Of a stretch of 64,000 bases of DNA, positions 25,869 through 41,760 are shown one piece after another; positions within the stretch are counted from its first letter, which is position 1, and every line of letters begins with the position of its first letter. The position numbers and the translations under genes are program-made. This DNA comes from Aristaeella lactis (GTDB taxonomy: Bacteria; Bacillota; Clostridia; Christensenellales; Aristaeellaceae). The DNA lies in NCBI RefSeq assembly GCF_018118585.1, contig NZ_CP069421.1, forward strand, positions 1,922,001 through 1,986,000, in the 5' to 3' direction. The notes under the pieces are model-generated. The model did not search any database and was not told the origin of the DNA. It saw nothing but the letters and a program-made list of their open reading frames with translations.

Positions 25869-26873
25869 ATGAAAAGAGCAACCATGCGGGATATTGCCCG
25901 CGCTGTAGGCACCAGTGCAGTAACCGTATCCAAAGCCTTGGCCGGAAAGCCGGGCATGAGCGACAAGCTTCGCTCCAAGATAATGAAGAAAGCCGGGGAG
26001 ATGGGATACGAGTATCCCCGGAACAGCCGTGTCATCCTCCCGGAGCACATGGAGATCGGCATCCTCATTCCGGACAAGTACTTTGAACCGGATTCCTATT
26101 ACGCGATCCTCTGCAAGCGGCTGATTAAAAAGCTGGAGGATATGGGACATTTCGGCCTGCTGGAGATTCTGACCACAGAAGTGGAAAAGCAGTTTGCCCT
26201 GCCGAACCTGCTGACTGCCGGCCACGCGGACGGGCTGATCCTGCTGGGTGAGCCTGCCAAGCCCTATTACCGGAAGATCGCCCAGGCGGGCGTACCCATC
26301 GTGTTCCTGGACTTCTATGACGAGCAGGCCAATGCCGATGCTGTAGCCGGGGATAACAGCTACGGCACATACCGGCTTACCAGCCACCTGATCCGCCGGG
26401 GACACACGAAGATCGGTTTCGTAGGGAATATCAAAGCCACCAGCAGCATCATGGACCGTTTTCTGGGATACTACCGCGCCATGCTGGTCAATGACCTTCA
26501 GGTACGGGAGGACTGGATCATCCCCGACCGCGAGCTGACCGGCGGGCTGGTGAAGCCTGTTCTGCCCGAAGAACTCCCGACAGCTTTTGTCTGCAACTGC
26601 GACATCACCGCCCGGATGATGATCAGCCTGCTGCAGGAAAAAGGCTATCGGGTACCGGAGGATATCTCAATCACGGGCTTTGATGATTTCCCCCAGGGCA
26701 GCGCAAATGATGTACCGCTGAGCACCTTCCGGATCGATACGGATGGAATGATCGAGCTGGCGGTCAAGGCGCTGATGGAACGCTGTGCCGGTGAACGGAA
26801 ACCCTTCGGCCGCCTGGTGGTCGGCGGTCAGCCGGTATACAGGGGATCAGAAATTCCCTTCGGGAATTTTTGA
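25869..26873 (+). CDS. LacI-family transcriptional regulator
   Basis: 334 residues. The N-terminal LacI helix-turn-helix reads MRDIARAVGTSAVTVSKALAG, followed by a periplasmic-binding-protein-like sensor (IGILIP, ADGLILLG, ITGFDDFPQGS). It probably represses the transporter and epimerase promoters, which share GGTTAACA half-sites, and responds to a mannoside. The start has AGGACTGGAG upstream. Its last codons lie within a terminator hairpin. Confidence 0.9.
   Translation: MKRATMRDIARAVGTSAVTVSKALAGKPGMSDKLRSKIMKKAGEMGYEYPRNSRVILPEHMEIGILIPDKYFEPDSYYAILCKRLIKKLEDMGHFGLLEILTTEVEKQFALPNLLTAGHADGLILLGEPAKPYYRKIAQAGVPIVFLDFYDEQANADAVAGDNSYGTYRLTSHLIRRGHTKIGFVGNIKATSSIMDRFLGYYRAMLVNDLQVREDWIIPDRELTGGLVKPVLPEELPTAFVCNCDITARMMISLLQEKGYRVPEDISITGFDDFPQGSANDVPLSTFRIDTDGMIELAVKALMERCAGERKPFGRLVVGGQPVYRGSEIPFGNF
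26851..26871 (+). terminator. Terminator inside the 3' end of the LacI gene
   Basis: AAATTCCC-TTC-GGGAATTTTT forms an eight-pair stem followed by T residues. It is also the coding sequence for the last residues before the TGA. AT-rich GAATTCATAATTCATAATG follows directly. Confidence 0.75.
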
Positions 26874-27105
26874 ATTCATAATTCATAATGAATAGTGTTT
26901 ATCTCCGCATTCATCGTTTATCAGCAGCATAATGGTAATTATACAATCCTCAGATCAGACCAATTGGTTCAGCAATTCATAATTGTTGAGGAGTTGTCCA
27001 AATCTATGATTTGGGTAACAGTTCCCATGCTACAGCCGTCAAAGGCGTGAAGCGGCTTTGGTAACGGCGATCGCAGAATTATGAATTAATAATCAAACAC
27101 AAGGA
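26874..27105. repeat. AATTCATA-type intergenic repeat block with small hairpins
   Basis: Begins with GAATTCATAATTCATAATG and ends with AGAATTATGAATTAATAATC. In between are small stems: CAATT-cat-AATTG (about 26972-26985) and CCAAATC-tat-GATTTGG (26998-27014). No gene is evident. Related sequence appears at 28134-28330, 37680-37985 and 40589-40789. Confidence 0.6.
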
Positions 27106-37918: not shown

Positions 37919-37946
37919 GAAACCCTTTCCATCCGGAAAGGGTTTT
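37919..37946. terminator. Terminator before the PPOX gene
   Basis: AAACCCTTTCC pairs with GGAAAGGGTTTT around ATCC, with A-rich sequence before and T-run after. It probably ends the ECF sigma operon transcript. Confidence 0.75.
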
Positions 37947-38048
37947 CTCCGCCATTATGAATTATGAATTGTTAATTCAATTATTCATTGCCTTTCCCCT
38001 CTGCCCCACGCTATAATACAAATACACCAAAAAAGGAGGTTCTGTTCC

Positions 38049-39334: not shown

Positions 39335-40420
39335 TTATTTGAAGATCCTGGGCAGGAAGGAACGGATGCAGCGGCGCCACACCGTCCAGTCATGTCCGCC
39401 GGGGAAGGTTTCCCGGGTGATATTCAGCTGCTTGCCTTCCAGGTAGGCGTCATCCTTGTCAAAGGCTTCCCAGTAGGTATCCTCCGTACCCATAGCACGG
39501 TAAAATACCTTAAAGCTCTCGTTGAACTTATCCGCCTCATGCAGCAGCTTCATATGGGGCATTTCCTCATCCGGATTCCAGGGAGCCCGGAGGAAGCCGC
39601 TGAACAGTCCGGCATAGCCGAACAGGTCCGGATTTGTCAGCGTCGTCACGCTGGTATGGAAGCTGCCCATGCTCAGGCCGGCCATAGCCCGGTGCCATTT
39701 GTCCGTCAGCACCTTATAGTTCTTTTCGATGTAGGGGATCAGATCCTTCACCACGATATTCGGGAACAGGGCAAAATCCCGGGGCTGGCTTTCGTCTTTG
39801 GGCTTGGCCATGCCGTTACCCATGACGATGATCATTTCTTCCATCTTTCCTTCCGCCAGCAGCCTGTCGGCGATGCGGCCCGCGTGACCCTGGTAGATCC
39901 AGCCGGTCTCATTCTCGCCGTAGCCGTGCTGCAGGTACAGCACCGGATAGGCCTTCGCCGGATCATAGGCCGGCGGCGTCCACACCAGGCAGATCTCCGT
40001 CTTTCCGGTCACAGTGGAGTAGAAATACCGGCGGGTCACCGCGCCGTGCTCCACACCCTCCAGGTCGTCCCAGCCTTCCATGTCGGCCACGGGCACGTCC
40101 ACAAAGTTCATCGGACGGCAGCAGCCGTATCCGATCGGCATATAGGGGCACAGAACGTCCGCGCCATCCACTTTCAGGAAGAAATACAGGAAACCGGTTC
40201 CCATATCAAAAGTGCCTTCCCAGGCACCGTCTTCCACCGGGGAAAGCGGGAAAATGGTTCCGAACCGGTCAATCACGACCTCTTTCGCGTCCTTCGCGAT
40301 TACCCTGAAGTGCACCTTTCCGTCCGGCAGGACCTCCGCCCCCTGAATGCCGTCCCGGCCGGGTTCACCGAAATACGGATCGAATGAAACCGTTACGTCC
40401 AGCGGCCATTTCTGCTGCAT
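39335..40420 (-). CDS. CE1-like esterase with N-terminal immunoglobulin-like domain
   Basis: 361 residues from the ATG at 40420 (GGAGGG upstream). The first 110 residues are an E-set domain (KVHFRVIAKDAKEVVID). The rest is an esterase D/feruloyl esterase fold: PVLYLQHGYGENETGW, GLSMGSFHTSV with nucleophile Ser, and GGHDWTVWR with the His. There is no signal peptide, so it acts on imported esterified oligosaccharides. It resembles XynZ/Est-type acetyl or feruloyl esterases. It fits the mannan/hemicellulose theme but lies on the other strand as its own unit. Confidence 0.85.
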   Translation of the reverse strand: MQQKWPLDVTVSFDPYFGEPGRDGIQGAEVLPDGKVHFRVIAKDAKEVVIDRFGTIFPLSPVEDGAWEGTFDMGTGFLYFFLKVDGADVLCPYMPIGYGCCRPMNFVDVPVADMEGWDDLEGVEHGAVTRRYFYSTVTGKTEICLVWTPPAYDPAKAYPVLYLQHGYGENETGWIYQGHAGRIADRLLAEGKMEEMIIVMGNGMAKPKDESQPRDFALFPNIVVKDLIPYIEKNYKVLTDKWHRAMAGLSMGSFHTSVTTLTNPDLFGYAGLFSGFLRAPWNPDEEMPHMKLLHEADKFNESFKVFYRAMGTEDTYWEAFDKDDAYLEGKQLNITRETFPGGHDWTVWRRCIRSFLPRIFK

Positions 40421-40588
40421 AAAATATCCCTCCTGGTTCTTTTCTGTTGACTCTCCTGCTGTCCGAAAAAGCACGTACAGCAATGCGTTGAGTCTACTGT
40501 AGCCGAACCGTCTCATTTTGTCAAATTTGCAATATTTGTCCCTTTGTACAGCAAATTATAGTCCTTCACGCATCTGTTTCAGCCACCG

Positions 40589-40789
40589 TCACATTCGCCT
40601 TTGGCCATAATACATTCACCAGGCGTATTATCAGCAAATATCACATTCGCCTTTGGCGAATAATTCATATCACCGCAGGCGATCATTCATATTGAGCCGT
40701 TTGCGGCTCAATAATTCATATGGCTGAAGGCATTCCGCCTTCAGCCATAATTCATTTTTCATTCAGAACACATCTGTTCTGAATGAAAA
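40589..40789. repeat. Tandem array of distinct hairpins joined by ATAATTCATAT
   Basis: At least four perfect stems with unrelated arms follow one another: ATTCGCC/GGCGAAT (40645-40661), TATTGAGCCG/CGGCTCAATA (about 40690-40713), TATGGCTGAAGGC/GCCTTCAGCCATA (40719-40749) and TTTTCATTCAGAACA/TGTTCTGAATGAAAA (40756-40789). The joining sequence is each time a version of ATAATTCATAT. A weaker stem lies at 40669-40683, and TCACATTCGCCTTTGG is directly repeated at about 40590 and 40641. The last stem overlaps the end and stop codon of the AraC gene. The remaining 40421-40588 carries the esterase promoter region and no gene. Confidence 0.8.
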
Positions 40790-41760
40790 CTATTCCTTTT
40801 CCACTCTCCCGGGTTCATTCCGGTCACTTTCCGGAATACCGATGCAAACTTGCTTGCGTTGGTATAGCCGCAGAGTCCCGCCGCTTCGGTCACGGTCAGG
40901 TCATCCCGGAGGAGAAGGTTCCGGGCTTCCTGCATGCGTACCTGGGTCCGGTACTCATAAATGGTCATTCCGTACACCTGCCGGAATACCTGTTGCAGAG
41001 TGGTGCGGTTCAGCTTTACCCTTGCCGACAGGGTTTCGACAGAATAGTCAGCGCTCAGATTTTCTCCCAGCAGCTTACGGGCTTCATGCACCTTGCGGGC
41101 GGTGTCGCCGCTGAAATACCTTTGTCCGGTCATCCGGCCGTCCCTGGCATCCAGCAGGGCGACAATCGCCTGCAGCGTCATCAGTTTCCGGTGATACTCC
41201 CCATATTTTTCCGGTACCTGCATCAGCCCTGTAAAGATGTTTGCCAGCAGATCGTTTGCGGGAAAACTGACGCATGATTCAGAATGCTCTATTTCAGCAA
41301 ACAGTGTTTCCCTGTCAAAATCCCGGGTGTTGAAAAAGCGGTTCAGGGTGTCTGCCAGGTCATCCAGGAAAACCACGATGCTGATGCAGCACATGCCTCC
41401 CTTTCCGATGCGGCATGACCGGGCGCCGACGCGGCTGTTGAACAGCATCACATCGCCCTTGTCGGCACTGGCAAAGCGCCTGTTTTCCATCTCAAAATCG
41501 GCATGTCCTTCCACCATGTACATCAGTTCCAGACTCCGGACAAGCTTTTTCATTTCCTGGAACACCGGCGTATAAGCTTCGATTTCTGAATAAATCAGTT
41601 CCACACCCCTGGCTACATGATGGCAGCGCATAATACCTTCACCCATGTCGCTCTTCAGGCGGCAGGTTCTCTCGGTATCTTTCCGGCTGATCAGAGCCAT
41701 GTACCGGGTAAACAGCTCATCGGAACCGCTTCCGTTCACGTCCCGTTTATCCATATTCAT
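40759..41760 (-). CDS. AraC-family transcriptional regulator
   Basis: 333 residues. A cupin-like N-terminal sensor (LELMYMVEGHADFEM) precedes the double helix-turn-helix at about residues 230-325: VETLSARVKLNRTTLQQVFR, then VTEAAGLCGYTNASKFASVFR. The start overlaps the stop of the MATE gene (TGATG). Its final codons lie in a 15-pair hairpin. It may regulate the exporter or a sugar pathway. Confidence 0.88.
   Translation of the reverse strand: MNMDKRDVNGSGSDELFTRYMALISRKDTERTCRLKSDMGEGIMRCHHVARGVELIYSEIEAYTPVFQEMKKLVRSLELMYMVEGHADFEMENRRFASADKGDVMLFNSRVGARSCRIGKGGMCCISIVVFLDDLADTLNRFFNTRDFDRETLFAEIEHSESCVSFPANDLLANIFTGLMQVPEKYGEYHRKLMTLQAIVALLDARDGRMTGQRYFSGDTARKVHEARKLLGENLSADYSVETLSARVKLNRTTLQQVFRQVYGMTIYEYRTQVRMQEARNLLLRDDLTVTEAAGLCGYTNASKFASVFRKVTGMNPGEWKRNSFHSEQMCSE

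Follow-up and report, generated by a model that had tools for sequence, protein, structure and literature searches.

Arrays of hairpins with differing stems on a fixed heptamer linker, similar to Gut-1 in architecture, are dispersed behind genes in some rumen bacteria

Why should a row of hairpins whose stems differ from each other, but whose linkers hardly do, stand directly behind the stop codon of a gene? The question is raised by a locus within a 64,000-nt stretch of Aristaeella lactis DNA (NZ_CP069421.1, positions 1,922,001 to 1,986,000 of the forward strand), referred to here as the window. Four tandem hairpins with differing stems and a fixed heptamer between them lie at 40645–40755 on the plus strand. 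The adjoining gene presumably encodes an AraC-family protein, a name taken from the sequence-only reading that first pointed to the locus (Table 1). The row of hairpins with different stems and near-identical linkers described in that reading was confirmed, with stems from 40645 to 40789 and the linkers AATTCAT (three times) and CATTCAT (once). At least four perfect stems of 7 to 15 pairs had been counted; there are four array hairpins and a fifth at the junction to the gene, but hairpin 2 carries an A.C mismatch. The proposed extent of 40589–40789 is correct from 40645 onwards, whereas 40579–40644 is a decayed partial copy and not clean array, with a 27-nt repeat at 40579–40605 and 40631–40657 (85% identical). 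The left end reads CAGCAAATATCACAT at 40632–40646, where other arrays have CAGTAACTNTCAYAT, a likeness judged by eye. As had been read, the AraC stop codon (40759–40761, minus strand) lies inside the last stem. A CRISPR array was rejected before and is rejected here, since a constant repeat is absent; only the 7-nt linker is constant and the variable parts are self-complementary.

Table 1. Features of the hairpin array and its gene junction in the window
Position	Strand	Feature	Remark
40579..40644	+	Decayed partial copy of array start, and left end	27-nt direct repeat
40645..40661	+	Hairpin 1	ATTCGCC-TTT-GGCGAAT, 7 bp
40662..40668	+	Linker	AATTCAT
40669..40683	+	Hairpin 2	Imperfect, 6 positions, one A.C mismatch on +
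40684..40690	+	Variant linker	CATTCAT
40691..40712	+	Hairpin 3	
40713..40719	+	Linker	AATTCAT
40720..40748	+	Hairpin 4	
40749..40755	+	Linker, array end	AATTCAT
40756..40789	+	Junction hairpin	15 bp, both arms inside or overlapping the AraC reading frame
40759..41760	-	Gene presumed to be of the AraC family	3' end abuts the array

Folding of both strands, proposed earlier as a check, placed the locus 9 to 12 standard deviations below shuffled sequences: z was -10.5 and -9.0 for the two strands folded as RNA (301 nt) and -10.8 and -12.0 when folded as DNA (171 nt). On either side of each linker in the window AT..AT is part of the stems. The 11-nt linker ATAATTCATAT is matched six times in the window with at most one mismatch, compared to 0.48 matches expected. 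Two further sites in the window hold heptamers: on the minus strand at 37920–37991 an AATTCAT-like heptamer array is followed by AATGGCGGAG and an 11-bp hairpin (37920–37945), an element of the kind that sister species carry at gene ends in place of hairpin arrays, and at 26850–26895 ATTCATA heptamers adjoin a hairpin.

The window array is one of dozens of dispersed copies found in some rumen bacteria. Searching the 3.45-Mb genome for hairpin-linker units gave 34 matches to the exact linker-hairpin-linker pattern versus none when reversed, and 64 versus none for the exact linker. With the linkers relaxed to TTCAY, 8 of the 45 genomes of the genus matched, with 104 matches in A. lactis (G000), two in G003 and one in G055; the control pattern had no match in any of the 45. 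In 292 kb examined, 104 of 151 pairs of neighbouring linkers enclosed a perfect hairpin, compared to 0 of 18 for four control heptamers and 0 of 18 in six congeners free of arrays. A pattern at chance level or restricted to this locus, which would have counted against the sequence-only reading, was thus not found. Array-strand linkers vary (AATTCAT, ATTTCAC, ATATCAT and others). Stems stay paired while their sequence varies: the 290 distinct perfect units in five genomes use 163 distinct arms, 7-bp stems being commonest (130 of 290), and arms taken from different units pair perfectly in only 16 of 2550 combinations. The stems had been called unrelated, which does not hold entirely: most units genome-wide begin and end with AT..AT and most triloops are closed by a C-G pair.

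A class-wide search with the pattern matched 96 of 393 genomes, the listed matches being mostly AT-rich and without stems as judged by eye, unscored; in the order-wide search the control pattern also matched in some genomes. Among viral contigs 106 stretches matched, and a stem of at least 7 bp was present in one of 109 linker pairs (80 loci), which we take as chance. Genome contigs yielded 29 stretches, 16 of them from RUG111, and 12 of the other 13, on inspection, were simple direct repeats. One of these (L087) has an AT-rich inverted repeat within the repeat.

We tabulated 35 arrays of A. lactis with respect to their neighbouring genes. In 34 a called gene lies on the right, in 26 of these on the minus strand, and 23 of the 26 minus-strand genes have their stop codon within 74 bp of the array; 8 of the 34 arrays face no gene stop. 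Near position 930 of L048 in another genome (G007) an array-end hairpin encloses the apparent ribosome-binding site of a gene we take to be dnaK, so arrays can also abut gene starts. The names groES, groEL and ABC permease used below are likewise presumed. A groES-groEL query matched 40 of the 45 genomes, and among the 30 loci listed 25 spacers hold no array and are 24–89 bp long. Directly behind the presumed groES stop codon an array is found in four genomes, and in G001 a junction hairpin followed by heptamers.

Comparison of orthologous intergenic regions, another check proposed at the outset, revealed that occupancy and unit number vary between related species. One syntenic region has 12 gene ends at which two or more linkers are present in one or more genomes. 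Judged by linker counts across five array-bearing genomes, nine of the 12 ends are of mixed occupancy and two are fully occupied, while the remaining one offered just two orthologues for comparison. A single array is present six times in G007, and two of these copies lack one hairpin-plus-linker unit; since some of the six also have their left flank in common, the copied segment may have extended beyond the array. An orthologue of the AraC gene was detected in 4 of the 45 genomes (E≤1e-30). At this site G007 has an identical hairpin 4, the same stem 3 with another loop, the rest truncated, and a different junction hairpin together with different last codons. G022 and G041 have heptamers there. 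Where one genome has a hairpin array, another often has a plain heptamer array at the same gene end.

The hairpin at the junction differs from the internal ones in its relation to the gene. We scored inverted repeats in the interval that runs from the final 45 bases of coding sequence up to the first linker. Of 90 gene ends with an array, 56 have one of score 8 or higher, and in 42 an arm lies within the coding sequence. At ends without an array the corresponding numbers are 85 and 67 of 846 in the same genomes; genomes free of arrays have 7 and 5 of 234. The second arm stops no more than 3 nt from the first linker in 40 of the 56 cases, and stop codon and linker overlap at 13 of the 90 ends. 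Coding arms are frequent in A. lactis (18 of 37) and G007 (16 of 21) and less so in G041 (5 of 21), G022 (1 of 6) and G001 (2 of 5); 34 of the 90 ends have no junction repeat. The copy tends to follow the codons of each species: the end of the presumed ABC permease gene has a 20-bp perfect copy in A. lactis, while the G001 copy departs from its coding arm at the third position of two codons. Where groES orthologues are free of an array, the coding arm is present and the copy is missing, which indicates that the coding arm is ancestral there. In these comparisons the junction hairpin often repeats the 3' end of its own host gene in inverted orientation. The sequence-only reading had offered a process creating inverted duplications or selection for RNA or DNA structure; the former appears apt for the junction hairpin and the latter for the internal hairpins, which look structurally constrained.

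Replication alone could be held responsible, with template switching making or perfecting inverted repeats at gene ends and heptamer slippage supplying the linkers, so that no element would be needed. The copying of gene ends by junction hairpins and the replacement of hairpin arrays by heptamer arrays at the same gene ends both fit, and template switching is described as able to create and maintain hairpins in the part of PMC8794818 on which we draw. We nevertheless regard this explanation as improbable. The same linkers recur genome-wide, Gut-1-like arrays are present in many families of the order, array-free congeners have none at the same loci, and the loops are non-random and strand-asymmetric, as detailed below.

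The resemblance to Gut-1 (RF01706) came from comparison with Rfam. Scanning the window gave no family at the gathering threshold; sub-threshold matches to rteR, mir-465, SNORA12 and others lie far below gathering and were dismissed as chance. The Gut-1 model scores 13.3 bits at 40633–40692 on the minus strand, compared to a gathering threshold of 50, so the window copy is a variant and not a formal member. Elsewhere in the same genome Gut-1 is matched with 53.3 and 53.0 bits (L052), with more matches in L051 and L053. Linkers of the UGAAAU type between hairpins, a feature of Gut-1, are present as ATGAATT and GTGAAAT. The matches to Gut-1 lie on the complement of the array strand. Within the genus 8 of 45 genomes match the model, seven of them above the cut-off, with 53 places in A. 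lactis (at E≤0.001, some below the cut-off), 52 in G041, 54 in G022, 46 in G001, 14 in G004, 9 in G007 and one each in G003 and G060. Seven of these eight genomes carry TTCAY matches and G060 has none; G055, with its single TTCAY match, has no hit to Gut-1. Across the order, where scoring was limited to 11 candidates per genome, 99 of 396 genomes match the model and 61 of them exceed the cut-off. An E. coli control also matches the model below the cut-off. Gut-1 is the closest known family, a likeness missed by the sequence-only reading.

Gut-1 is listed as certainly RNA, probably not cis-regulatory and restricted to the human gut in the section of Weinberg et al. 2010 (PMC2864571) used here. 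The same source weighs the STAXI motif as RNA versus single-stranded DNA by loop chemistry, and our strand argument is of that type. We counted mismatches in 45 near-perfect stems as they appear on the array strand and found 27 G.T, 7 A.C and 15 others (G.T versus A.C, p 0.0008); after clustering of similar units 21 G.T remained versus 7 A.C (p 0.013). This count pools loci from other families; G165 alone has two G.T and two A.C. Wobble and loop counts cover stems of at least 6 bp with linkers A[AT][AT]TCA[CT] only, and hairpin 2 of the window is therefore outside them, its 3' linker being CATTCAT. Array-strand loops run from G to A in 94 of 173 triloops and 29 of 97 tetraloops, and from T to C in 6 and 3, respectively, giving 123 versus 9 when all loops are pooled. 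Other perfect hairpins from the same DNA have 14 versus 10 of 105 and 13 versus 23 of 136. Both main linker classes are biased towards G..A (24 versus 2 and 42 versus 1), as are units from other families (12 versus 0 of 17 and 12 versus 0 of 21). GNA and GNNA loops with G-C pairs are reported as extraordinarily stable DNA mini-hairpins in the portion of PMC4686876 consulted.

Structural constraint was not seen on the Rfam strand; the wobble and loop asymmetry lies on its complement and places the folded strand opposite to that of Rfam. The second C-G pair required for UNCG tetraloops of an opposite-strand RNA is present in 24 of 83 cases. With 11 GNRA and 18 GNYA loops, the array strand has no excess of the former, which argues against a GNRA-type RNA there. 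We infer that the array strand folds as DNA, and in this sense the strand signals favour DNA over RNA. Against this, an array-strand RNA would give the same wobble asymmetry, and the DNA energy of the window copy does not favour the array strand (-47.3 kcal/mol versus -49.3 kcal/mol for the complement).

If the arrays acted as RNA, they could be 3' UTR hairpin clusters that end transcription or protect the mRNA end, or they could encode a small RNA. Their position behind stop codons, the listing of Gut-1 as RNA (PMC2864571), the proposal of hairpin clusters without poly-U as terminators, found in the passages of PMC8355165 cited here, and three terminator-like sites at 40400–41000 of the window versus 0.5 expected would all agree with such a function. 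We consider it unlikely, as the asymmetries lie on the opposite strand and, of the three terminator-like sites, two lie on the plus strand and not on that of the AraC transcript. Of 56 junction hairpins 2 are followed by a T-run, so the U-run of intrinsic terminators is generally missing. Arrays between the presumed groES and groEL also speak against it.

Mobilisation as a REP family by a RAYT/Y1 transposase would account for dispersed hairpins as well. REPs are hairpins with a short guide at the 5' foot that are processed as single-stranded DNA, according to the part of PMC6006769 considered, and A. lactis has four Y1_Tnp matches. However, 19 of 20 Y1 loci lack a linker-flanked hairpin (L289 has three), including all four of A. 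lactis. Y1_Tnp is present in 28 of 45 congeners, many of them array-free, and absent from array-bearing G004 (70% complete). The tag is TTCAY and not GT[AG]G, although the neighbours were collected with a linker pattern ending in TCA[CT] and all listed are of that kind. We hold this origin to be very improbable. The Y1/RAYT genes of the genus (L277–L296) have GGGACRG/CYGTCCC motifs at 20 of 20 loci, 2 to 10 per locus, and downstream of the Y1 gene in L281 tandem units of about 65 nt contain GTGACAGTTGGTCTGTCCCTTTGTCACATT. An origin from a reverse transcriptase was also rejected, PF00078 being absent from the array-rich genomes G000, G041, G001, G007 and G022; it is present in array-bearing G004, G003 and G055.

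The explanation we propose, and to which we give an even chance, is a dispersed single-strand-DNA hairpin repeat of Gut-1 architecture with inverted copying at the junction. An array would consist of hairpins with free stems joined by a fixed heptamer, its copies mostly behind gene 3' ends in one orientation. The form that matters would be the DNA strand antisense to the adjacent gene when it is single-stranded and folds into stable C-GNA-G mini-hairpins. A process acting on single-stranded DNA may insert units at TTCAY beside an existing hairpin, and template switching of the polymerase at the junction may copy the gene end in inverted form and help the stems to stay paired. Against this explanation stands that neither an insertion event nor a responsible enzyme was found, and that the mismatch in hairpin 2 of the window, read on the array strand, is A.C instead of G.T. 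A more far-reaching and rather doubtful version is that Gut-1 is the complement of a new class of single-strand-DNA hairpin repeats (fixed heptamer, any stem, C-GNA-G loops) behind stop codons, whose junction is built on arrival from the inverted last codons and may sometimes rewrite the C-terminus, as at AraC.

The arrays link an orphan Rfam family, printed as confined to the human gut, to a dispersed repeat frequent in one bacterial order. They also supply, from sequence alone, an argument for a different strand and a different molecule as what may fold, and their junctions take up host coding sequence as inverted copies. They further provide many natural replicates for the origin and upkeep of perfect stems, be it by selection, compensatory change or template switching.

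Several known systems share parts of this organisation. A literature search, supplements and most subscription journals excepted, found no description of Gut-1 as a dispersed DNA repeat. The arrays resemble Gut-1 in their successive hairpins on UGAAAU-type linkers, several of them above the gathering score. They differ from the noncoding RNA of the human gut in having tens of dispersed copies per genome behind genes in a rumen lineage and in carrying their structural signals on the other strand; the linker class of the window copy is ATGAATT. Unlike hairpin-cluster terminators they also occur between groES and groEL, form a lineage-specific repeat and have the strand signal on the other strand, while clusters close behind stop codons are common to both (PMC8355165, in part). 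With REP/BIME elements they share dispersed intergenic hairpins, a fixed tag at the 5' foot and a location mostly downstream of genes (PMC3733652 and PMC6006769, as far as these were used), but their stems are diverse, the tag is TTCAY, and the RAYT genes of the genus carry another repeat. The TAACTGA repeats of Beggiatoaceae are likewise 7-nt intergenic units; as described in the relevant part of PMC4679880, they have no hairpins between them and lie mostly just upstream of start codons, whereas hairpins separate the units here. Hairpinless heptamer arrays hold the same gene ends in sister species. Template-switch hairpins, in the excerpt of PMC8794818 cited above, account for inverted copies and multi-base compensatory change, but alone they do not account for the fixed linkers or the multi-copy spread of the arrays.
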